From: Engelhardtia mirabilis
GTDB taxonomy: Bacteria; Planctomycetota; UBA1135; GCA-002686595
Length of the DNA: 45,168 bases
Assembly (NCBI GenBank): GCA_007751255.1
Contig: CP036297.1
Span: forward strand, 1 to 45,168
Reading direction: 5' to 3'
The notes beneath the pieces were generated by a model. The model had not been told where the DNA came from and made no database searches. It saw nothing but the letters and a program-made list of their open reading frames with translations. Made by a program: the position numbers and the translations under genes. Each line of letters begins with the position of its first letter. Position 1 is the first letter of the stretch. Shown here one piece after another: positions 1 to 13,587 of this stretch.

Positions 1-2060
1 ATGCATGGACTTACGATAGATAAACGGACAGCCGTTAAGAGTGGGGCATTATTACTAACCCTGCTGGCGCTTTTAGCTGTGGCGTTTCTGATTGTCACGA
101 GGCAACGCGGTGCGACGCAGTCCCCCAATCAGGTCAACCGTGAATCCGCCCAGCAGGGTCATGAATCGGCTGAAGGCGAAACTTTGGCTGAAGCTGAGAG
201 CAATGCGGAGTCCCGCACCCCAGCCTCAATCCCCCCGGCGACACGAGGGGCAGAGTCTCCCGCAAGACCCCCCGGCATTCTGGTCGAGGTCGCTCCATGC
301 GGATCCATCGGCTACGGGGGTCACGAGGTCGAGATCTCGATCGAGAACATCTCATCCGTAGGAGGCTGGGCGCTGAAACGATCTGCTCGAACCGAGAACC
401 TCGCGTCGTTTTTTGAGGGCGTTACCCCCGGACGGTGGTCTGTCAAATCAGCGCTCGGCCATGATGAAGTCGTTGCCGTCGCTGCAGGCGACTTCGTGCG
501 GGTCGAGCTAGCTGTAGAGGGCCTCACCGAGCACTGTGTCGTCGCGGTCGTTGATCCCGCCGGATCAGCGGTAGCTGAGGCAACAGTCTTTGCCGACGGC
601 TTCGATCGAGGCAAGACGGGCGAAGACGGCACCATAGCCATTGGCTGTATCAAAAGGGGCTCACTACTGTCAGCCTCCTCAGCCGAGTATGCAAGCCCAG
701 CGCCCATTCAGTTCTCAAACTGGAGGCCACAACCCGTTGAGATTCAACTGAGAGAAAAAGGCGCGTCGCTAAACGTGGAGCTCTCCCAGATTGCGGGAGT
801 CGAGACCATCCGAGTAAGCGTTGGCATCATACACACCACATTAATGGCCTTTGAAGAGATTGGCTCGGATTGGTACACGTCGAATCCTCTTTTGGAGGCC
901 GAGATGCTTCCGGGCTCAGTCCGAAAGTTTGAGGGCGTGCCCGCCGGGCGCTGGGTGGGCATTACGGCATCGGGCGCGAACGTGGCAACAGCCCAGGAAG
1001 CCATTTGGCTCCGTGAGGGTGAATCACGAACTGTTCGCCTCGATCTTCAGAAGGGGGTAACCGTACACGGAAGAGTAATCGGGGAGAACTTACTCCCGCT
1101 CGCCCAGGCATGGGTGGGGGAGGCTCCACTCGGACTGTACGGAAAGCGATCAGTCGAGACAGACGCTGACGGCTGGTACGAGCTCCACCAGATCTGCCCT
1201 GGAGAGCGGAAACTGGAGGCCATCGGCCCACCCGGATGCAGCGTTGTTGAAGTTGTCAGCATCAAGGAAAACTCGACGAGCGAGTGGAACCCCGTCCTTG
1301 CATGTGGATTTCAGATCTCTGGCCAAGTAGCAACAACCGAGGGCGAGCCCGTGCAAGGCGTGCTAGCCGCGCTCCTCGACCCGGCTCGACCGAACCTCTG
1401 GCTCTCCACGGTGAGGACCGGCGAGAAGGTCATTTCGACCTCTGGGGGGCGCTGCCTGAGGGCAACATCATCTCCGTCGTGCGTTCAGGCGAGGGGCTAG
1501 GATACCTAGAGGGTGCCCGGATGGAGGGCCTGGTTGGGGGGACAACAGGTCTCGTGCTCGAGTGGCAGGAACCAGCCACTGGGGTTCAGGTGCGCGTGAC
1601 CGACCCCGTCGGCCGCCGACTTGAGAATGTAGTGCTCGAGTTTACCCCCCTGCCCAAAGCTGACGACAGCGTCATCTGGAGACGGCTTGACGGCGAGGGG
1701 GGTGCACTCACGCCGTCCGGTCGATTCAGCCTATCCCTAAGACACGAGGAATTCGGTGTAGCGGATTTAGGAGAACACAACCTAGAGGCGAATGCTTTAA
1801 AGGATCTCGGTGAGGTCAACTTCAAGGCCCCAGCTTGGATGTCTATGCGGCTCTCTATTCAGCAGGCTAGATGGTCTATCGAGATAAGGCTGGCCGAATC
1901 AGGGCATCTCGTTTTTAAGGAAGTTGACGCAACTGGTCGGAGTTTATACGGGCCCTTTCAGCCGGGCTCCTACAGAATAGTCGCGTCGCCTCCGCATGGG
2001 AATGATTTCAGCACAACGGTCGTCCTTGAGGATGGGGAAACGTCGGTGATCGGGTGGTAG
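1..2060 (+). pseudogene. Membrane-anchored carboxypeptidase-regulatory-like protein, one frameshift
   Basis: Frame 1 opens with a charged N-terminus and one hydrophobic segment (about residues 15-33, rich in Leu/Ala/Val) followed by a Glu/Ala/Pro-rich linker, which suggests a membrane anchor with the rest outside the cytoplasm. Downstream there are several repeats typical of carboxypeptidase-regulatory-like beta-sandwich domains (phrases such as VTPGRW, TDADGWYEL, ICPGERKL). Frame 1 stops at 1500, but the homologous reading continues in frame 3 from about 1430 (GHFDLWGALPEG) to the stop at 2060. Adding one base near 1430 gives one protein of 686 residues, and 2060+1 divides exactly by three. 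So this is either a recent pseudogene or an assembly error. Base 1 is the A of the ATG, so the true start could lie before the window. If the replicon is circular, the preceding gene would be the exported protein at 44074-45162. The substrate or partner is unknown. Confidence 0.7.
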
Positions 2061-2080
2061 CTCGGGTTGGTCAGTAAGGA

Positions 2081-2248
2081 CTAGGACAGCAGGTTCACCC
2101 CAGACTCGCACGCCACCAGGCTGTGCTCCTCCAGGAGCGCACGGGCCTCGTCGGCTCGAGACCGAGCTAGGCAAAGAAATAGAGTTGGGCTCACCGGGGC
2201 GTCCGCCTTCGTTTTCGGGCCCTCAGCCGGCTCCGAAGACCTGACCAC
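2081..2248 (-). CDS. Possible 55-residue ORF or gene remnant
   Basis: A GTG-started minus-strand frame encodes 55 residues with protein-like composition toward its end (phrases LARSRADEARALLEEHSL and ACESGVNLLS). It lies between the broken first gene and the decayed integrase, where debris is common. The second half could be the C-terminus of an older gene, because an in-frame stop lies just upstream of the GTG. I do not recognise a family. Confidence 0.3.
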   Translation of the reverse strand: MVRSSEPAEGPKTKADAPVSPTLFLCLARSRADEARALLEEHSLVACESGVNLLS

Positions 2249-2278
2249 CTCTTACTTGCGAAGCATCGGAGGCAGTCG

Positions 2279-3241
2279 CTAGTACCGGACCTTGAAGGTG
2301 GGGGAATCCTCCGGCCGCGACCGTCGGCGATCGTAGAGCCGGGTGGTGCTGATACTGGTGTGCCCGAGCCACTCCTGGACGTAGGCGATGTCCGCTCGTG
2401 CTCGAGCGCGTTGGTGGCCGCGGTCGCCCGCAGTGCATGCAGGCACAGCCCGTCGACGTGGACGCCGGCCTTGGCGGCGTATGTCTTGGCCATCTTGTAG
2501 ACCCCGTCCCCGGTGATCGCCCCGTCGAGCTTGCCGGTGCGGTTGTTGCGCACGGGGCGGAAGAGGGCGCCCTTGCGGTCCTCGCGGTGCCCGGCGAGCT
2601 CGAGGTAGTCGTCGATTGCCGCAAGCGCTGCAGGAGGAAAGCGAGTCTTGGAGCCCTTGAGACGGTCAGATGCATGACGCCCGTCGCTCGGCCATGCTCT
2701 CGACCCGCAAGCCGGCGAGCTCGGATCTGCGCAGGGCGTGGAAGAGGTAGGTGCCCAGAATCGCCCGGTCTCGCACCGCCTTCAGGCTGTCGCCGCGGGG
2801 CGCCTGCAGGAGCTTGCGCGCCTGCTCATCAGACAGGGCTGGGGTTTTGCCCTCATTGGCGCCGTCCCCAGGGCGCTTGACGCCGGCGACGGGGTTGCTC
2901 TCGACCGCGTTCTCGTTGCACAGGTGGTCGAACAGAGACGAGACGGCCGAGAGCTTGCGCCGGATGGTCGCCGCAGCGAGCCCGTCAGCCTCGAGGACGC
3001 CACGCCAAGCGAGCAGATGGGCCCGCGTGACGAGGCGGAGCTCTGCAGGGGTCTCGACGCCGCAGAAGCTCACGAAGGCTTCTACGTCGCCCTGGTAGGC
3101 CCGCCTGGTGTTGGGGTTGTCGATGTTGGCCAGCCAGACCGCGGCGGCCGGCACGTCGGAGAGGTGCTGGAACTGGGCCGCTGAGAGCCGCCTCTCGCCC
3201 TGCCGCGCCGGTAGATGGGCTCGACGATCTTGCTCGCTCAT
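2279..3241 (-). pseudogene. Tyrosine recombinase/integrase, multiply frameshifted
   Basis: Reading the minus strand from the ATG at 3241 gives an N-terminal SAM-like core-binding domain (AVWLANIDNPNTRRAYQGD, then an RRKLSAVSSLFDHL helix) and the start of the catalytic domain with the first Arg (FHALRRSELAGLRVE). The frame then breaks near 2680 (about one base lost), again near 2660 (about four bases lost, in the VSxKGSKTRF hairpin), and near 2400 (one base lost). Reading through the breaks recovers the other catalytic motifs: LHALRAT (HxxR), WLGHTS (GH) and the nucleophile in RLYDRR, then a stop at 2279. The repaired length is exactly 322 codons. The start overlaps the vapC stop as ATGA, so the gene was co-translated with the toxin-antitoxin pair. 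It cannot make a full recombinase as it stands. Fragments of the same family lie at 9242-9373 and 43323-43365. Confidence 0.85.
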
Positions 3242-3637
3242 GCGTCCACCCAGGGGTTGATGAGAAGGGCGCCCGTGCCCTCGAAGTCCTTCACGTTCCG
3301 CGTCATCACGTGGAAACCGTGACGCAGAGCGGTCGCGGCGATCAGCGTGTCGATCGGTGGGGTGGTCCTGGCCACCCGCGCCCTGACTTCGCCCCAGATC
3401 CGCGCTGTTTCGGCGTCGACGTCGACGATCCGGTCGTCGTGCTGCTCCATCTCTAGGACGAGCCTCTCCAGTGTGTCCTTGCGAGGGCTCGGGTCGAGTC
3501 GCGCGATGCCGTGGACAAGCTCTCCGAGCGTCAAAGGTGTCGCGGCTGGTGAGGCCGCGGACGCGGTCCTTGACCCGCTGGGCGCCCTTGGGACGCAGCG
3601 TCTCCGAGATCACGCAGGTGTCGAGCAGGACCCTCAT
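3238..3637 (-). pseudogene. vapC: VapC-type PIN-domain toxin, frameshifted
   Basis: The N-terminus MRVLLDTCVISETLRPKG carries the first PIN-domain Asp. The C-terminal half is in another frame: TLGELVHGI with the PIN Glu, then IDTLIAATALRHGFHVMTRN with the later acidic residues, ending NPWVDA. Removing one base near 3545 joins them into a 132-residue FitB/VapC-like protein (400 nt is 133 codons plus one base). VapC toxins are Mg-dependent RNases that usually cut tRNA or rRNA. The gene overlaps its antitoxin upstream and the integrase downstream. The break should inactivate the RNase. Confidence 0.8.
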
Positions 3638-3913
3638 GAGCGGCGCTCCTGATCGTCGAGTCCTAGCGCCTCGAGCGGATCGGTTGCCCGACCTGGGCCG
3701 GAGTGGCGCGACAGATCGAGGTCGCTGATGTCCGGCCAGCTCATGAGGAACTCAACGAAGTCTGGGCGGGCGCCGGTGAGTCGGTCGAACTCGGCGGCCG
3801 AGAGGACGACAACGGCGTCGTCCCGGCGCTCGATGCGTTGGGGCTCACCAGCAAGGGCGCGGCGCACCACCTCGCTCAACTTGTTTCTTGGCTTCCGCCA
3901 GCTTCCAGATCAT
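3634..3913 (-). pseudogene. Phd/VapB-type antitoxin, frameshifted near the N-terminus
   Basis: The ATG at 3913 follows a good GAGGAG ribosome site and begins MIWKLAEAKK, the usual opening of Phd/YefM-fold antitoxins. One extra A in an AAA run near 3888 then shifts the frame. The rest continues as LSEVVRRALAGEPQRI and DAVVVLSAAEFDRLTG, the classic Phd core. The corrected length is 92 residues. A downstream TTG at 3879 could still start an N-terminally short product. The antitoxin would neutralise the PIN toxin at 3238-3637 and repress the operon through the inverted repeat just upstream. Confidence 0.78.
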
Positions 3914-3927
3914 GTGCAGGTCTCCTC

Positions 3928-3949
3928 GTCTAGGTTAGATCATCTAGAC
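3928..3949 (-). promoter_or_regulatory. Inverted repeat upstream of the Phd-type antitoxin
   Basis: GTCTAG at 3928-3933 and CTAGAC at 3944-3949 are perfect inverted arms around a 10-bp AT-rich spacer, 15 bp before the antitoxin start. Position and symmetry fit an autoregulatory operator. Binding is inferred. Confidence 0.45.
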
Positions 3950-3999
3950 ATGATCGCACACCCTGACCCCGCTGTCAAGTGTCCCCAGGGACGCCGCCC

Positions 4000-4401
4000 A
4001 CCTGCCCGCCATTCCGCGCCCAGACGCGCGGTTCCAAGCCACCGGCGCTGTTCTTCGACCTGACCTCGAAGGACGGGACCGCGTTCATCGCCATCGCCGA
4101 TGAGGAGGCCGACCGAAGTCAGCTCAGAGAACATCGCGATGGAGCTACTCGGCGTAGCCGCGATGGGGGGAGGGGCAGCTTCGCCGGCACCAATCCTTGC
4201 CAGCCCACTGAAGTGGAGCGCATCGTCGAGAAGTGCATTCGCGTCGCCAAACAGCACCGCGGCTTGGAGCCGTTCACGGTCGCCCGCAAGGTCAAGCACT
4301 GGACCCTTCAGCAGTGGCAGGACGCTCACTTGCGTCACCGATCCACTCAGATGCGGCAGTGGCAGGCTGCCGAGGTTGACGACGAGCTCGGAGCCTTTTG
4401 A
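4000..4401 (+). pseudogene. C-terminal remnant of a second replication-initiator-like gene
   Basis: The frame ending at the TGA of 4399-4401 matches the last ~140 residues of the large protein at 40216-41904. Here IVEKCIRVAKQHR, EPFTVARKVKHWT and QMRQWQAAEVDDEL correspond to IVERCIRLAKNHR, DPFTIARRAEGWT and QARQWYREDDLGDE there. An earlier block (ADEEADRSQLREHRDG versus ADEDAAATRLREFRDG) also aligns. Nothing N-terminal to this survives, so the gene is truncated on its 5' side against the Phd operator. The next gene starts at ATG 4401, overlapping this stop, as a gene starts overlapping the intact copy's stop at 41901. Confidence 0.7.
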
Positions 4402-5098
4402 TGGCCGATTCAGAAAACTCGGAATCCGATGTCCGCGAGTCCGCCGGGGCACGGCAAAGGGGAGCAGAGGAGGGTCTCGACTCTATGACAGCATCGCAAC
4501 CACAGCCCGCCACGTCCCCCGAGGACGACCGCGCAAGCCCCGAAGAAGCGGCCCTGGCCATCGCCGGGCTCTCCGAGAAGGGTAAGGCGACCCTTCGGTG
4601 GTGGCCCGATCCTATTGGAACCAAAGGATGAGCGGCCCCAACGCCGGGTCTGACCCCGACGATCTCCTCCAAGAAGCCATCGTCCGAACGCTGCAGGGTT
4701 CAAGGCGGTGGCGAAGGTCAGTCACCATTGTCAAACACCTGATCCGATCTATGCAGAGCATTTCTTGGGAGGCTCTGAGGGTCAGGAGGGCGCAGCCGCA
4801 TGCCTGGGCCGAGGATTCTGTGGACGAGCTCGATCCCGGCGATCGCCCGGACGAGGCGGAGGGTTCCATCGTGGTGGATGTCGTCCTTGCTCGGGAAGAG
4901 CTCGCGCAGCTGGAGGGACTCTTCGAGCACGACGAGGAAGCGCTTGAGGTGCTTCGCTGTCGCTCGCTCGAACTTTCTCCGTCCGAGACCTGTGCTCATC
5001 TCGGCATAGAGAGACCCCGGTACGACACGGTGAACAAGCGCATCTGGCGGAAGCTCACTGAGTCAGCCAAGAACAACCAAAGCGAGGAAGGGCAATGA
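4401..5098 (+). CDS. Sigma-70-like factor, apparently frameshifted once
   Basis: The main block (from 4598) contains a sigma region-2-like segment (DPDDLLQEAIVRTLQGSRRW, then a long helix) and a C-terminal region-4-like helix-turn-helix (LSPSETCAHLGIERPRYDTVNKRIWRKL). The N-terminal part is in another frame from ATG 4401: a Glu/Ser-rich leader, then EEAALAIAGLSEKGKATLRW, which should join VARSYWNQRMSG. One base missing near 4597 explains this, and 698+1 nt is 233 codons (232 residues). A GTG at 4598 could start a shorter product. It would redirect RNA polymerase or act as a DNA-binding regulator of the genes behind it. Its stop overlaps the next start (ATGA at 5095-5098), so it heads the operon that runs through the ubiquitin-like genes. 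I recall similar sigma-like/HTH/ImmA trios on other mobile elements, but I could not check this. Confidence 0.65.
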
Positions 5099-5664
5099 AG
5101 AAGAACAACGCGGAGCTCGTGGCCAAGGCCCGAGCGATGTCCGTAGCGTTCCGGGAGTCCATCCTGGAGGCGTCCGAAGGAGAGCTGAGACAGGCTCTTC
5201 AAAACGAAGGTCTCGATCTCGACGAGGAAGCTGCGCGTGCGCAGGACGTCATCGAGAAGGCCTTCGAGAAAGCCGGAGTTCATCTCCCGGCGCCGGCGAA
5301 CGAGGGGCCGGAGCACCTCGGAGAGCTGCTGCTTCTCTTGCGACGCAAGAAGAAGCTGACTGAAGCAAAGCTCGCCCTACAGGCTGGCGTGCCGGTGGAG
5401 GACGTCCTCCGGACAGAATCCGACCCGACGTTCGTGCCATCACTTCGAACGCTCGCGCGCCTGGAGGACTTCTTCAAGCTGAAGGACCGAACCCTTTCGA
5501 TCCTCGCTGGAGCCGTGCGTGTTCAGAAGGATGCCGCGGAGTTCCGTGAAGGCGTCGAACAGTTCAAGTGGGCAGCCTTCTCCCGTGGCATGGGGAAGCT
5601 CAGCCGGGAAGAGAAGAAGCAGCTGGACCAGATCATTCGCTTCTTGGGGGACTACACGGAATGA
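5095..5664 (+). CDS. XRE-like helix-turn-helix protein
   Basis: This 189-residue protein has an acidic, helical N-terminus and a central segment (about 68-125) that fits a Cro/C1-type HTH: HLGELLLLLRRKKKLTEAKL, AGVPVEDVLRTESDP and SLRTLARLEDFF. The C-terminal ~50 residues are charged and helical. It overlaps the sigma-like gene by 4 bp and is followed 4 bp later by the metalloprotease start. HTH repressors next to ImmA/IrrE proteases are often the protease's substrate, cut to relieve repression under stress, which suggests that role here. It is longer than a minimal XRE protein. Confidence 0.65.
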   Translation: MKKNNAELVAKARAMSVAFRESILEASEGELRQALQNEGLDLDEEAARAQDVIEKAFEKAGVHLPAPANEGPEHLGELLLLLRRKKKLTEAKLALQAGVPVEDVLRTESDPTFVPSLRTLARLEDFFKLKDRTLSILAGAVRVQKDAAEFREGVEQFKWAAFSRGMGKLSREEKKQLDQIIRFLGDYTE

Positions 5665-5668
5665 GGGG

Positions 5669-6628
5669 ATGAAAAACACTCCGATTGATCCATTCGCCGC
5701 GGAGGAGATCCAGGGGATCGTCTCACGTGTGCTGCGTGAGGTGGGCGCTGAGCCGCCGTTGAATACCGACGAAGTCCTCGAACGGCTGAAGCTGGATCTT
5801 CGTTACTTCAGCCTGACCGACCCGAGCTTGCGCCAGGAAATGGTGCACCGGGCGAAGGTTGGCACCATCGGTCTTGCCAAGAAGGCTGTAGAGAGTCTGT
5901 TTGCGATCGCAGAGCGAGCACAGGTTTGGGGTTTGTGGCTTCCCTGGCAAGAGGGGTCGGGAGAGTCCACTCGCGGCCGAGTTCTCATCAGCGATGAGGC
6001 TCCGAAGCTGAAGCATCGGTGGATCAAGGCGCACGAGATCGGTCACAGCCTCATTCCTCACCATAAGCGGTATTTGTTCGGCGACCCCGAGGCACTGCTG
6101 AGCCCGGCGTGTCAGGAAGAGCTCGAAGGCGAAGCGAACTACGCCGCCGGTCAGCTCAATTTCATGCAGGGGCGCTTCGTCGAAGAGGCGAGCGATCACG
6201 CGATGGACATCAAGTCCATCCAAGCCCTCGCCAAGACGTTCGGGAACTCGTACCCGTCGACCCTCTGGCGCTTTATTGAGGAGGCGCACAGGGGAGAGCC
6301 GCTCGTCGGTCTCGTGACGGCCTTGCCACACGACCACACAGCGGCGGAACCCTGCCGCTACTGCATCGAGTCTCCCGCTTTCCGGGAGCGGTTCGGTTGC
6401 GTCACCGAAGCTGAACTCGTGGACGCTCTGCGAAGCTACTGCCGGTACGACCGCCGCAGAGGCCCGCTTGGCACCGGAGAAGTCTGCCTAGAGGACGCGA
6501 ACGGCCAGCAGCACGTCTTCCACTTCGAGACGTGGGCCAACAAGTACGACGTCCTCTCCATCGGGGTCTACGACGGCCCTGTGAGGTCGTCGGTCGTCGT
6601 GCCGCCGGGGTCTCTCAGGGCGACGTGA
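5669..6628 (+). CDS. ImmA/IrrE-family (M78) metallopeptidase
   Basis: The start at ATG 5669 is preferred because GAGGGG lies immediately upstream and the previous gene stops at 5664; a longer in-frame opening would run through that gene. The 319-residue product has a zinc protease motif HEIGH at residues 122-126 and a downstream Glu/Asn helix (EGEANYAAGQL, about 153-163), as in ImmA/IrrE peptidases that cleave HTH regulators. The C-terminal ~120 residues (with CRYC near 224-227) are extra to the minimal peptidase. Context suggests it controls the adjacent HTH protein and so the whole operon. It could also act as a protease in the ubiquitin-like pathway, which the sequence cannot distinguish. 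Confidence 0.85.
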   Translation: MKNTPIDPFAAEEIQGIVSRVLREVGAEPPLNTDEVLERLKLDLRYFSLTDPSLRQEMVHRAKVGTIGLAKKAVESLFAIAERAQVWGLWLPWQEGSGESTRGRVLISDEAPKLKHRWIKAHEIGHSLIPHHKRYLFGDPEALLSPACQEELEGEANYAAGQLNFMQGRFVEEASDHAMDIKSIQALAKTFGNSYPSTLWRFIEEAHRGEPLVGLVTALPHDHTAAEPCRYCIESPAFRERFGCVTEAELVDALRSYCRYDRRRGPLGTGEVCLEDANGQQHVFHFETWANKYDVLSIGVYDGPVRSSVVVPPGSLRAT

Positions 6629-6748
6629 TTTCGTCGAGATCAATGTCCGCGACGGGGGCCCAGCACGGCACAGGAGGGTGAGCAGGCAGGCCTGGTGCCA
6701 CGGTGGTCCAGAAGTAGCCGGCACGGCACCAATACGAGGTAGAGAACC

Positions 6749-7081
6749 ATGACACAGAATGATCCCGAGCAAGAGCTTCAGGACGAGCTCGACGTAGAGC
6801 AGTTCACCAAGGAACACCCGGCGGACTGCGGTAAGCCCCACGCGAAGGTCTACATCATCCGCGTAGACCGCAAAACCATCCGCGTTCCGCACCCGGAGCT
6901 CACCGGACAGCAGATCCTGCGGCTGGTCGAGAAGACCCCGGAGACCCACAAGCTCTTTCAGAAGTTCAAGGGTGGCGAGACCAAGGAGGTCGCTCCTGGC
7001 GAGACCGTGAGTTTCGTGCGGCCGGGCGTCGAGCGGTTTATGACGATCCCCTGCGACACCACGGAGGGGTCCTGTGGCTGA
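6749..7081 (+). CDS. Ubiquitin-like protein of the multiubiquitin family, single domain
   Basis: This 110-residue acidic protein has a disordered N-terminus (1-30) and one beta-grasp-type domain (about 32-105): KVYIIRVDRKTIRV, LTGQQILRLVEKTPETHKLF, VAPGETVSFVRPGVERF, then TIPCDTTEG. These are the recognisable phrases of the bacterial multiubiquitin domain, which usually ends in TEG rather than GG. Only one domain is present, whereas related proteins often have two or more in tandem. The C-terminus here is TTEGSCG, so conjugation would use this end or need trimming. The start follows GAGGTAGAGA. The gene lies 120 bp after the metalloprotease and its end overlaps the E2-like start (GTG 7074). 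It is the candidate modifier of the operon. Confidence 0.82.
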   Translation: MTQNDPEQELQDELDVEQFTKEHPADCGKPHAKVYIIRVDRKTIRVPHPELTGQQILRLVEKTPETHKLFQKFKGGETKEVAPGETVSFVRPGVERFMTIPCDTTEGSCG

Positions 7082-7484
7082 CCTTCGGCGGGAGTTCACG
7101 CTCCCGCCCGAGGACGTCGCGTTCTTGGAGGAGATGGGGTGGCCCTGGGAGGCCATCCGGGACGGCAACACGATGTGGCTCGTCATCCACGAGTACGCCA
7201 TCCCGGGCGGCTACCAGACCAACTCGACGTCGGTCGCCCTGCAGCTTGCTGCGACCTACCCGGAGGCCCAGATCGACATGGCCTACTTCCACCCGGCCCT
7301 CTCCAGGATCGACGGTGCCGCCATCCGGCAGCTCACCGATCACCGGCTGGACGGCAAGGTCTGGCAGCGTTGGTCCCGCCACAGGACGGCCCAGAACCCG
7401 TGGCTGCCTGGAACCGACGGCCTTGATACGCACATGCTCCTCGTGGGTGAGTGGCTTGTGCGCGAGCTCCGGGTCGCCGCATGA
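7074..7484 (+). CDS. E2/UBC-like protein (prokaryotic E2 family E type), cysteine-free
   Basis: The 136-residue product starts at GTG 7074 inside the Ubl gene and ends in ATGA shared with the E1 gene. Features matching the bacterial E2-like family found beside multiubiquitin genes are LPPEDVAFLEEMG, VIHEYAIPGGYQTNSTSVAL, TYPEAQIDMAYFHPAL, WQRWSRHR and DTHMLLVGEWL. There is no cysteine anywhere in the protein, so it cannot form a classic E2 thioester. The conserved WSRH histidine is present. It may act as a non-catalytic adaptor, or the family may use other chemistry. Gene order and tight overlaps argue that it works with the Ubl and E1. Confidence 0.8.
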   Translation: MADLRREFTLPPEDVAFLEEMGWPWEAIRDGNTMWLVIHEYAIPGGYQTNSTSVALQLAATYPEAQIDMAYFHPALSRIDGAAIRQLTDHRLDGKVWQRWSRHRTAQNPWLPGTDGLDTHMLLVGEWLVRELRVAA

Positions 7485-8857
7485 AGCTTCGCATGACCGG
7501 CGGCCAGCACTCCCTGCTGGCCGCCCACCTGTTTCCAGGGGACGGCAAGGAGGCCGTGGCGATCGCCCTGTGTGGTCGCCGAGGCACCGATGCCCTGATG
7601 CTGCACGAGATCGAGGCGGTGCCATACGAGCTCTGCGACCGCAGCTCTGGCTACGTGACCTGGCCACCGACCTTCCTGGAGCCGCTCTTGTCGAGGGCGA
7701 ACGACGAGGGGCTGGCCCTGGTCAAGTTCCACTCACACCCGTGCGGGTACCCGCACTTCTCCGAAACCGACGACCAGTCCGACGGACAGTTCTTCGAGTC
7801 CGTGTTCGGCTGGGTCGATGGTGATCGCCCACACGTAAGTGCCATCCTGCTCCCCGGTGGATCGGTCATCGCTCGCGCGGTTCATCCCGATGGCTCCTTC
7901 GAGGCGATCTCGAAGATCAGCGTCATCGGTGACGACATCCGAATCTGGACAGAGGACAGCGGCGGGGCGGTGCCGGAGTTCGCCGTACGACACGCACAGC
8001 TTTTCGGAGCGGGGACAACGAACCTTCTATGCCAACTCACCGTGGGTGTCGCCGGATGCTCAGGTACAGGGAGCCCTCTGGTCGAACAGCTGGCGCGTCT
8101 GGGGGTGGGGGAGCTAGTCCTCGTCGACCCCGACCACGTCGAGGAGAAGAACCTGAACCGCATCGTCGGCTCGACCATGGAGGATGCCGTGCAACGCCGG
8201 CCGAAGGTTCAGGTCCTGGCACGATCCGTGGAGGCTATGGGCCTCGGAACTACCGTCAGCACCTTCCACGCTCCGCTCCAGGATGACCAGGCCCGGAAAG
8301 CCCTCGCGTCCTGCGACGTCGTCTTCGGTTGCATGGACAGCCTCGGGGGGCGGAGTATCCTCAACCGCCTGGCGCGCTACTACACGCTGGCCTACATCGA
8401 CCTCGGCGTGAAGCTGGAGGGCGACGGCCACGGTGACGTCGATCAGGTGGCAGGGGCTGTGCACTATCTACGCCCCGATGGAGCAGGCCTAGTTCAACGC
8501 GGCGTCTTCACCGCCAAAGCGCTCGAAGCGGAGAGCTTGCGCGACACCGATCCCGAAGGGTACGTCGACAGGCTGAAGCGCGGTTACATCGAGGGCGTCC
8601 AGGAAGACCGTCCAGCCGTGGTGAGCGTGAACAGTTACTTCGCCAGCCTTGCGGTCATCGAGCTTCTCTCGCGGTTGCACCCCTTCCGGTCTGGCGAGAA
8701 CGCCGCCTACGCGGTCCAACGCGTGAGCTTGACCAACACGCTTTGGGTGCTCGAAGAGGACCCAGGAGCTGGCCCTCACGAAGAGCGGATAGTGGGCAGG
8801 GGAGATGCGACGCCCTTCTTGGGCATGCCGGGCCTTGGTGAGGGCGACGAGACATGA
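7481..8857 (+). CDS. JAB deubiquitinase-like domain fused to E1/ThiF adenylyltransferase
   Basis: The 458-residue protein begins at ATG 7481, overlapping the E2-like stop. Residues ~1-150 form a JAB/JAMM metalloprotease domain with FHSHP at 83-87 and S94xxD97 (HxHP...SxxD), expected to trim or remove the Ubl. Residues ~175-430 form an E1/ThiF domain with nucleotide loop GVAGCSGTGS (189-198), LVLVDPDHVEEKNLNR (212-227) and GCMDSLGGR (283-291). The later RGYIEGVQEDRPAVVSVNS block is typical of E1s in multiubiquitin operons. Where I expect a C-x2-C near the active loop, this protein has RPDGAGLVQRG (331-341), and there is no Cys after residue 284. It may therefore adenylate without forming a thioester. 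The fusion lets one polypeptide both process and activate the modifier. Confidence 0.85.
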   Translation: MKLRMTGGQHSLLAAHLFPGDGKEAVAIALCGRRGTDALMLHEIEAVPYELCDRSSGYVTWPPTFLEPLLSRANDEGLALVKFHSHPCGYPHFSETDDQSDGQFFESVFGWVDGDRPHVSAILLPGGSVIARAVHPDGSFEAISKISVIGDDIRIWTEDSGGAVPEFAVRHAQLFGAGTTNLLCQLTVGVAGCSGTGSPLVEQLARLGVGELVLVDPDHVEEKNLNRIVGSTMEDAVQRRPKVQVLARSVEAMGLGTTVSTFHAPLQDDQARKALASCDVVFGCMDSLGGRSILNRLARYYTLAYIDLGVKLEGDGHGDVDQVAGAVHYLRPDGAGLVQRGVFTAKALEAESLRDTDPEGYVDRLKRGYIEGVQEDRPAVVSVNSYFASLAVIELLSRLHPFRSGENAAYAVQRVSLTNTLWVLEEDPGAGPHEERIVGRGDATPFLGMPGLGEGDET

Positions 8858-9204
8858 GTTGGATTGACCGCCTCTGGTCGTGGGCGAAGGGCTTCTTCGT
8901 CCGGCGGCCGGCTGCGCTCAAGACCATCCGGGTAGAAGAGCCTCCCGAGGTCTTGCGCCCTCGAACCGTCTATCTGCTTGGCGAGGGCGAGCACGTCTGG
9001 AGCGTTGTGATGCTCTGTCCTTGTGGTTGTGGAGAGGAGATCCAGCTCAACACTGTCGGTGGGCACCCAAGGTGGTCCGTGGAGGTCGAGATCGATGGAA
9101 CAGTGACGCTAGCGCCCTCCGTTTGGAGGAAGGCGGGCTGTGAAAGCCACTTCTTCCTCCGTAGTGGCGCTATCCAATGGTGTTCGAGCCGATTGGAGGG
9201 TTAG
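8854..9204 (+). CDS. DUF6527-family protein of the ubiquitin-like operon
   Basis: This 116-residue protein starts in the ATGA overlap with the E1 gene. It has CPCGCGEEIQLN (about 51-62), which suggests a small metal site, and the block LAPSVWRKAGCESHFF then IQW near the end. These match the DUF6527 signature (CPCGCG, PSIWR, GC.SHFF), a family I recall beside E1/E2/multiubiquitin genes. The basic N-terminus (SWAKGFFVRRP) is unremarkable. Its role is not known to me; candidates are a zinc-dependent E3-like adaptor or a target-recognition subunit. It is the last gene of the operon, and recombinase debris begins 38 bp downstream. Confidence 0.8.
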   Translation: MSWIDRLWSWAKGFFVRRPAALKTIRVEEPPEVLRPRTVYLLGEGEHVWSVVMLCPCGCGEEIQLNTVGGHPRWSVEVEIDGTVTLAPSVWRKAGCESHFFLRSGAIQWCSSRLEG

Positions 9205-12756: not shown

Positions 12757-12861
12757 TCTGGGCCCAACCAATATTTACGGGAACTGGGTCGTTGGCACAG
12801 CTTTTGATTTGGCCGCTCATGAATGATTATGAATCGGACCTGGGGAAGGGAATCTAAGGGC

Positions 12862-13587
12862 ATGGCCAGATGCACAGCACCTGTACGGGGACACAGTTCA
12901 CCGAACGCAGCTGCGGACTGCCCTGCATGCGGCGGCCGCTATGGGCGATACGCCAGCTACGGGAGCTCGCCGCGGTCGTCCTATTCCTATTCAGGCGATA
13001 GAGGCGGCGGCAGTTCGAGTGGCGGTGGCGGCAGAGTCCGAGCCACTACGAAGCCGCACTGGTCGCCGCCCGGCTCATCTGTGTCCTACACGCCTACCGA
13101 GGTTCGTGCACTGACATCGGTGAGGAGCAGCGTCGAGAGCCTCGCGAAGGTCCCCGACCTCCGGGATGTTTTCCTGTGCCATGCGTGGGACGACCGGATG
13201 GGGGCTGCGCAGGAGCTTCACGGTCTGTTGGAGTCAGCCGGTGTCCGCGTCTGGTTCAGTGAGAAGGATGTCGGCCTCGGTGTTCCATTGCTCCGCGCGA
13301 TTGACAAGGGGTTGGCAAATTCACGAGTTGGAGTCGTGCTGGTAACCCCGGCTCTGCTGGACCGTATCTCCGCGGAGGGCATTGCTGAGAGGGAGCTTTC
13401 GGCGCTCCTCGCCCGTGAACGGCTCATCCCGGTTGTACACAAAACAACGTATGAGGCTCTCCGCGACGTCAGCCCCCTGCTGGCCTCGAGGGGCGGGCTG
13501 AACACAGCGGAGGAGACGATGGAAGGTGTTGCGACCAAGCTCTCTGAGCTGATTACCGTTGAACGTAGCCTCACAGGTCGTTCGTAA
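12862..13587 (+). CDS. TIR-domain protein with N-terminal Cys/His motif and Gly/Ser linker
   Basis: ATG 12862 follows CTAAGGG and gives MARCTAPVRG, a start I recall from a family of bacterial TIR proteins; an ATG 39 bp upstream is less likely. Residues 4, 11, 20 and 23 (C, H, C, C) could bind zinc. A Ser/Gly/Tyr-rich linker (26-60) follows. The TIR domain (about 100-235) begins RDVFLCHAWDDRMGAAQELH and continues GVRVWFSEKDVGLGVPLLRAIDKGL, then RVGVVLVTPALL. Many bacterial TIR domains consume NAD+ in antiphage defence; whether this one does is untested. Two further genes follow in the same direction with short gaps, suggesting a three-gene system. Confidence 0.8.
   Translation: MARCTAPVRGHSSPNAAADCPACGGRYGRYASYGSSPRSSYSYSGDRGGGSSSGGGGRVRATTKPHWSPPGSSVSYTPTEVRALTSVRSSVESLAKVPDLRDVFLCHAWDDRMGAAQELHGLLESAGVRVWFSEKDVGLGVPLLRAIDKGLANSRVGVVLVTPALLDRISAEGIAERELSALLARERLIPVVHKTTYEALRDVSPLLASRGGLNTAEETMEGVATKLSELITVERSLTGRS

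Follow-up and report, generated by a model that had tools for sequence, protein, structure and literature searches.

How do immune operons stay silent, and what makes them fire? The question is open, and the controllers described in the available part of PMC13373217 are repressor systems. A locus from Engelhardtia mirabilis raises it in a particular form. In contig CP036297.1 (positions 1 to 45,168, the whole 45,168-nucleotide stretch that we analysed and call the window), genes for a ubiquitin-like conjugation system are preceded by three genes of regulatory type. The seven genes lie on the + strand in the order of the original prediction, namely sigma-like factor, helix-turn-helix (HTH) protein, ImmA/IrrE protease, ubiquitin-like protein (Ubl), E2-like protein, JAB-E1 fusion and DUF6527 protein (Table 1). 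We propose, with a probability of about 0.6, that this bacterial ubiquitination-like (Bub) operon is under a dedicated sigma-factor switch, in which proteolysis under stress would free the sigma factor, which would then turn the operon on. The case is built on the parts themselves, the sigma fold of a homologue, the recurrence of the cassette with Bub operons and with those of the cyclic oligonucleotide-based antiphage signalling system (CBASS), and a pair of twin promoter-like elements.

The 6.95-Mb genome consists of two contigs, of which the window is the one labelled C2. Its sequence shows 99.9% identity with pPla133_1, a circular plasmid from Planctomycetes bacterium Pla133 that is typed as mobilizable with a MOBP relaxase, which bears out the plasmid-borne setting originally assigned to the locus. 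The window is 30 bases shorter (net) than pPla133_1, and all differences are confined to its first 4.6 kb (1-4600), where they hit or break xerD, a FitB-type gene and the sigma-like gene, each of which is one frame in Pla133. Because the differences cluster there and break frames, they look like assembly error or poor sequence near the contig start. The sigma-like gene of the window is thus read as two frames that overlap, one at 4401-4631 and a second from 4598 or 4628 to 5098, and that of pPla133_1 as a single frame of 232 amino acids. From the promoter element described below, a ribosome-binding-like sequence and the length of the homologues seen (mostly 180-210 amino acids), the true start is probably the ATG at 4485 (4514 in L003; loci are designated by L numbers) rather than 4401.

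Pfam calls were judged against the curated cut-off. Sigma70_r2 stays below it in the window and in Pla133 (about 15 bits versus a cut-off of 24; E 0.013-0.018), and a homologue from Abditibacteriota (L006) passes the sigma-70 cut-off with 39 bits. We modelled the Rhodothermales homologue (L017), which is 39% identical to the aligned part of the window protein, with AlphaFold from ten aligned sequences, obtaining a predicted local distance difference test (pLDDT) value of 81.8. When this model was compared with the PDB by Foldseek, the top listed matches were nearly all sigma factors, none of them at E<=0.001 (best 2.2e-3). The template modelling (TM) scores were low, as a flexible linker joining two domains would give. 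The model argues for a diverged two-domain (region 2 plus region 4) sigma factor of the extracytoplasmic function (ECF) type.

The sigma gene recurs beside other Bub operons. Scanning genome contigs for BubCD yielded 79 loci, which are the best of 158 relatives and are biased towards the query alignment, itself including sigma loci. Ten of the 79 carry the sigma gene (L017, L023, L025, L030, L036, L037, L047, L062, L076 and L085). Among the 75 with at least 2.5 kb upstream, sigma is present in 9, an ImmA-type protease within 4.5 kb in 48, and both in 6. Because of these two frequencies (10/79 for sigma, 48/75 for the protease), the trio is, judged by gene neighbourhood, one of several interchangeable controllers of Bub operons. 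Bub loci with a sigma gene are also found on plasmids (L004, L006, L008, L009, L011, L142 and L146). Homologous Ubl-E1 operons, on whose carriage of the regulator trio the original prediction had staked itself, include one that does carry it: in L017 the seven parts of the window are all present, with order and strand unchanged and HEITH as the protease motif.

Thirteen further plasmid sigma matches were taken (L135-L147). Sigma, small protein and ImmA stand in a row in 11 of the 13 by annotation or profile, and by the same evidence L135 and L136 have no ImmA-type gene just downstream of sigma. Across the divergent region from the cassette, L139, L143 and L147 carry a CBASS cyclase operon (in L139 behind a 92-amino-acid gene), while in L142 and L146 Bub genes face it. 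The neighbour in L145 is, according to PADLOC, an LmuA/MBL-like gene with an E1-E2-JAB protein, and we dropped its assignment to CBASS on this result. The remaining loci of the set have other or unknown genes in this place. Outside the set, a Beta-protein gene faces the cassette in Azospirillum (L010), and in L161 the sigma, small protein and ImmA trio faces a JAB gene and a ThiF gene. L161 is one of five larger regions taken; of the others, L159 and L160 combine sigma with a motif-type protein but gave no ImmA match, and L162 shows a weak sigma match only. In the fifth, L158 (6549-8446), on an 884-kb contig of a genome (G196) from the same order as the window's host, sigma, motif protein and ImmA are again in a row, and the TGTCCG motif described below is absent before sigma. 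In surveys for sigma, matches at E<=1e-5 came from 28 of the 392 genomes in the phylum of the window, most of these matches being weak and possibly ordinary sigma factors; in the class of genome G392, 4 of 385 genomes matched at E<=1e-8, G392 itself included. Searches of viral contigs gave no relatives. In L004, L023 and L036 the third position, elsewhere that of the protease, is taken by a conserved gene for a 450-amino-acid protein with an N-terminus reminiscent of proteasome-type hydrolases. For this resemblance Pfam, a PDB profile search, hhalign against HslV, PADLOC (L036) and AlphaFold (pLDDT 41) gave no support, and we do not claim it as a protease.

At many sigma loci, not all, a two-block element, TGTCCG-N17/18-GCATA, is oriented towards both the sigma gene and the adjacent operon. 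The window has one copy before the sigma gene (4430) and one before bubA (6644). They are identical at 19 of 20 scored positions, a value reached by 0/2000 shuffles and 0/2000 random window pairs (maximum 17 in both), and since both lie on the + strand they form a direct repeat, not the two halves of a palindrome. The strict pattern TGTCCGN{16,19}CGGCAMAGG occurs twice in the 6.95-Mb genome, only at 4430 and 6644; a reversed control pattern occurs once. With a matrix trained on 16 other loci, the two sites rank 2nd and 3rd of 90,276 window positions, and in L017 the site ahead of bubA comes 1st among 16,538 positions and the one ahead of sigma 4th. Four of the six gene junctions of the window overlap (4, 8, 4 and 4 bp), as originally stated for most of them; the HTH and ImmA genes are 4 bp apart and the ImmA and Ubl genes 120 bp, and therefore the seven genes are not one unbroken run. 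As the 120-bp gap holds its own promoter-like element, a single transcript from 4401 is not required.

Sets of loci were also compared. Against order-1 shuffles, 11 of the 17 first-set loci have p<0.05 in their divergent intergenic regions. At automatically called bubA starts the twin p is <=0.05 in 7/16 sigma loci versus 7/68 others. The best pair found in L023 has a p of 0.48. The second set consists of 11 of the 13 later-fetched loci, two being without annotation, and here the twin statistic gives p<0.05 in 7/11 (combined p 8e-9). The regular expression for TGTCCG-N17/18-GCATA was fixed before the second-set loci were read, and it was found in 7/11 of them versus 0/16 non-sigma control regions (Fisher p 3.7e-4). 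A crude motif count, on loci partly used to read the motif, gives 7/15 sigma loci versus 1/67 others. Some cassettes that lack this motif have another matched pair (L062, L145 and, by eye, L161). By eye, too, L085 has several tandem copies of a divergent promoter-like pair in the region that separates sigma from Bub. Genes for proteins of about 92 amino acids face sigma cassettes across matched promoter-like elements in L137, L138 and L140; those of L137 and L140 have no Pfam match, and all three are candidate new defence genes.

In the original prediction, the first three genes formed a switch in which the protease cleaves the HTH protein on a signal. The resemblance to CapH and CapP supports this part. 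The second protein matches PADLOC capH at 1.7e-6 (residues 75-186; Pfam HTH below cut-off, 0.04), and the protease passes the cut-off for Pfam Peptidase_M78 (1.8e-5) and matches capP at 9e-10, partially, over residues 105-204 of 319. CapP matches are nearly full-length in the three sigma cassettes tested (L009 1e-59, L145 1e-64, L047 5e-58). Plasmid relatives of the protease, 42-45% identical, have CBASS as their neighbour in Nitrobacter and Methylobacterium and Bub in Methylomagnum; these loci include an HTH gene, and none has a sigma gene annotated. According to the available part of PMC13373217, CapW or CapH+CapP is associated with 219 of 544 Bub operons, and CapP, which single-stranded DNA activates, cleaves CapH. 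Control of a Bub operon by a protease switch is thus already known from that source. Our reading differs from the original circuit in three respects: the Ubl genes have a promoter-like element of their own, the sigma-like protein is probably an activator, and the trio appears as only one of several controllers. A possible further controller type was seen in L013, L014 and L015, where a small regulator (CopG-type in L014 and L015) and a GNAT or hypothetical gene precede a CapH/CapP-like pair beside CBASS or Bub.

An N-terminal motif is common to the small second proteins found in sigma cassettes. In a set of 14 sequences, a profile of this motif from 19 second proteins matches the HTH proteins of the window (4e-8), L017 (2e-8) and L006 (1e-7), and none of 11 HTH proteins encoded at non-sigma loci (best value 0.35). 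The motif is present in 7/10 sigma loci versus 0/69 non-sigma BubCD loci, five of the seven positives being in the training set. On the simplest reading, this part of the protein would bind sigma, and in the window it would be fused to a CapH-like HTH domain. Four Bub loci encode a UvrD-like helicase with a fused ImmA-like part at its N-terminus (weakly matched by profile, with HExxH), the helicase part being confirmed by PADLOC for L006 and L019; in L006 the fusion comes after the sigma and second genes. Such fusions would suit an input from DNA damage.

In the mechanism that we favour, the second protein would at rest hold the ECF-type sigma factor through its N-terminal domain, and its HTH half may also occupy DNA. 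Stress, most likely single-stranded DNA arising through DNA damage or phage attack, as with CapP in other systems, would activate the ImmA/CapP-like protease, which would cut the second protein. The freed sigma factor would direct RNA polymerase to its own promoter (4430), giving positive feedback, and to the Bub promoter (6644), giving a burst of the Ubl-conjugation genes. From the sequence we infer the anti-sigma binding, the cleavage, its trigger, transcription by this sigma factor and a role in defence. If this is right, a sigma factor released by a stress protease would constitute an activator-type switch with positive feedback, and one would expect two start sites with the same -35 and -10 blocks, and induction to be lost without sigma or with an inactive protease. 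The promoter-like signature would also point to the targets of the cassette, including the unknown neighbours at L137, L138, L140 and L144, as candidate defence genes.

Several observations weigh against this mechanism. The sigma frame is split in this record, and the ten small second proteins compared with Pfam gave no family over cut-off and no known anti-sigma family. A looser pattern for the element finds 2 sites in the window versus 0.89 expected, which is not significant by number, and its -10 block was widened after the gap site had been seen. The top matrix site of the window (4980-5010, +) falls within the sigma gene, some 115 bp ahead of the HTH gene, and the second-ranked site of L017 (3730) is likewise inside sigma; coding conservation or an internal promoter may account for both. 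The L017 pair is not significant by mutual similarity (247/2000 shuffles reach its score), and the best-scoring pair of L085 is in the wrong order for a promoter. With set boundaries, the twin statistic also fires on non-sigma controls (5/16 with p<0.05, combined p 2.5e-5), through palindromes like those of repressor operators, and the case therefore rests on the common TGTCCG motif. For this motif, the Fisher test overstates independence because there are near relatives in the sets (L140/L141; controls L007/L049 and L031/L033/L043). The motif was not seen at sigma loci L006, L008, L030, L037, L062, L076 and L085, nor at L136, L142, L145, L158, L160 and L161.

A rival reading is a plain CapH/CapP switch: the HTH repressor would sit on both TGTCCG elements until cut by the protease, and the sigma-like gene would be an accessory passenger. 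The PADLOC matches to capH (1.7e-6) and capP (9e-10) speak for it, CapH+CapP is already published as a Bub operon controller (PMC13373217, available part), and proteases 42-45% identical to that of the window stand beside Bub or CBASS with no annotated sigma gene. Even so we consider it unlikely, because the element also occurs where the second protein has no Pfam family over cut-off (L009, L010, L023, L036, L047, L138, L139, L143 and L147, with the caveat that the second protein of L036 has a repressor-type match of 0.016 below cut-off), is found in none of the 16 control regions without sigma, and is directional, with two blocks and a 17-18-nucleotide spacer, rather than palindromic. The sigma factor might also work as proposed with the second protein a helper or a parallel CapH-like repressor, and with sigma or another protein as the target of the protease. 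The second protein is indeed tied to sigma only by gene order and the shared N-terminal motif, but the distribution of that motif (7/10 versus 0/69, with the training-set overlap given above) and the consecutive sigma, small-protein and ImmA genes at 11 of the 13 plasmid loci taken later make this arrangement less likely again. Finally, a decayed or chance neighbourhood, with a dead sigma gene and a trio merely adjoining Bub, would fit the split frame of the window copy, but we regard it as highly improbable: the Pla133 copy is whole, the trio precedes Bub in the same order in L017, and the differences between window and Pla133 all lie within the first 4.6 kb, as sequencing error would. The dedicated sigma-factor switch remains our preferred reading.

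The predicted target of this switch is of a familiar type. The core genes are above the Pfam cut-off for Multi_ubiq (PF14452, 1.7e-12), Prok-E2_E (6e-34), DUF6527 (4e-22) and, in the BubCD gene, Prok-JAB (8e-7) with ThiF (5e-27). Among PDB entries, BubA matched a multi-ubiquitin protein at 2e-7, BubB matched Citrobacter BubB (solved structures 9eae/9eav) at 3e-25, and BubCD matched Citrobacter BubCD (solved structure 9ea4) at 7e-84 across residues 3-454; the DUF6527 protein had no match in the PDB search. From the matches to solved Citrobacter BubB and BubCD, the four-gene core (6749-9204) is, by homology, a Bub operon, an already known kind, and the Ubl, E2, E1 and JAB parts originally named agree with known systems. 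TEG is found near the BubA C-terminus in 37 of the 48 frames compared (three of them copies of the window's own) and at the very end in many; the tail that follows the glycine in the window would need trimming, perhaps by the JAB domain. In the part of Iyer et al. 2006 (PMC1779556) available, operon class 6e has tandem Ub-like domains in some cases, an E2/RWD-like protein without the cysteine, a JAB-E1 fusion and a predicted Zn-finger protein. We take the window core and class 6e as the same gene set, and the DUF6527 protein as probably its Zn-finger protein, both by our own matching. The two have in common the Ubl, the cysteine-less E2-like protein, the JAB-E1 fusion and a fourth small protein, in the same order; no difference in the core is basic, the window BubA being one Ubl domain with a three-residue tail past TEG. 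Elsewhere on the window there is a TIR-domain protein that matches PADLOC ThsB (Thoeris) at 7e-114; the two genes after it and six further plasmid proteins had no PADLOC match, so that no ThsA partner was seen among those scanned.

Table 1. Coordinates of the features of the window and of other loci (L numbers) mentioned in the text.
Feature	Position	Strand	Remarks
Window: predicted sigma-dependent promoter element 1 (TGTCCG-N18-GCAAA)	4430..4458	+	upstream of likely true sigma start 4485
Window: ECF-type sigma-like factor (putative)	4485..5098	+	204 amino acids from 4485 in intact Pla133 copy; frame split in the window by a one-base difference
Window: second protein, N-terminal motif (candidate anti-sigma part) and C-terminal CapH-like HTH	5095..5664	+	
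Window: ImmA/IrrE (M78) metallopeptidase, CapP-like	5669..6628	+	HEIGH at residues 122-126
Window: predicted sigma-dependent promoter element 2 (TGTCCG-N18-GCACA)	6644..6672	+	gap before bubA
Window: BubA, single multiubiquitin-type Ubl	6749..7081	+	conserved TEG, then three extra residues SCG
Window: BubB, E2-like (Prok-E2_E)	7074..7484	+	translation with zero cysteines
Window: BubCD, JAB peptidase fused to E1-like ThiF domain	7481..8857	+	
Window: DUF6527 protein	8854..9204	+	fourth Bub operon gene
Window: TIR-domain protein	12823..13584	+	
L006: ImmA-like/UvrD-like fusion beside Bub	93..3530		
L019: ImmA-like/UvrD-like fusion beside Bub	3698..7129		
L020: ImmA-like/UvrD-like fusion beside Bub	1761..5369		
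L091: ImmA-like/UvrD-like fusion beside Bub	1994..5392		
L004: 450-amino-acid third gene	2682..4118		
L023: 450-amino-acid third gene	4793..6142		
L036: 450-amino-acid third gene	4844..6199		
L085: tandem divergent promoter-like pairs	6621..7000		
L013: small regulator and GNAT or hypothetical gene	4673..5499		
L014: small regulator and GNAT or hypothetical gene	4647..5497		
L015: small regulator and GNAT or hypothetical gene	4669..5498		
L137: gene for protein of about 92 amino acids	4073..4351		
L138: gene for protein of about 92 amino acids	4056..4334		
L140: gene for protein of about 92 amino acids	3824..4102		

The core and the CapH/CapP-like pair are thus of known kinds. A sigma cassette with twin elements common to Bub, CBASS and other operons was not found described among the literature titles listed, and may be mentioned within Bub or CapH/CapP papers. 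With CapH+CapP the window shares an HTH protein and an ImmA-type protease beside the operon, together with the PADLOC matches to both; it differs in that the sigma gene comes first, the HTH protein has an additional N-terminal motif whose occurrence follows that of the sigma gene, and each of the two transcription units has a promoter-like element in front of it. CapK+CapS and CapW, which respond to DNA damage, are likewise small regulatory cassettes beside Bub and CBASS operons, but they are repressor systems, and for CapK, which resembles anti-sigma kinases, no sigma factor is described in the available part of PMC13373217. The sigma-like protein of the window, in contrast, is probably an activator.

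RpoE-RseA is an ECF sigma/anti-sigma pair released by proteolysis. The window resembles it in the two-domain sigma fold (from the model of the homologue), the predicted autoregulation, and the putative inhibitor and protease encoded next to the sigma gene. It differs from RpoE-RseA in being without a recognised anti-sigma family, in the M78 type of its protease, and in having an immune-type operon as its predicted target.

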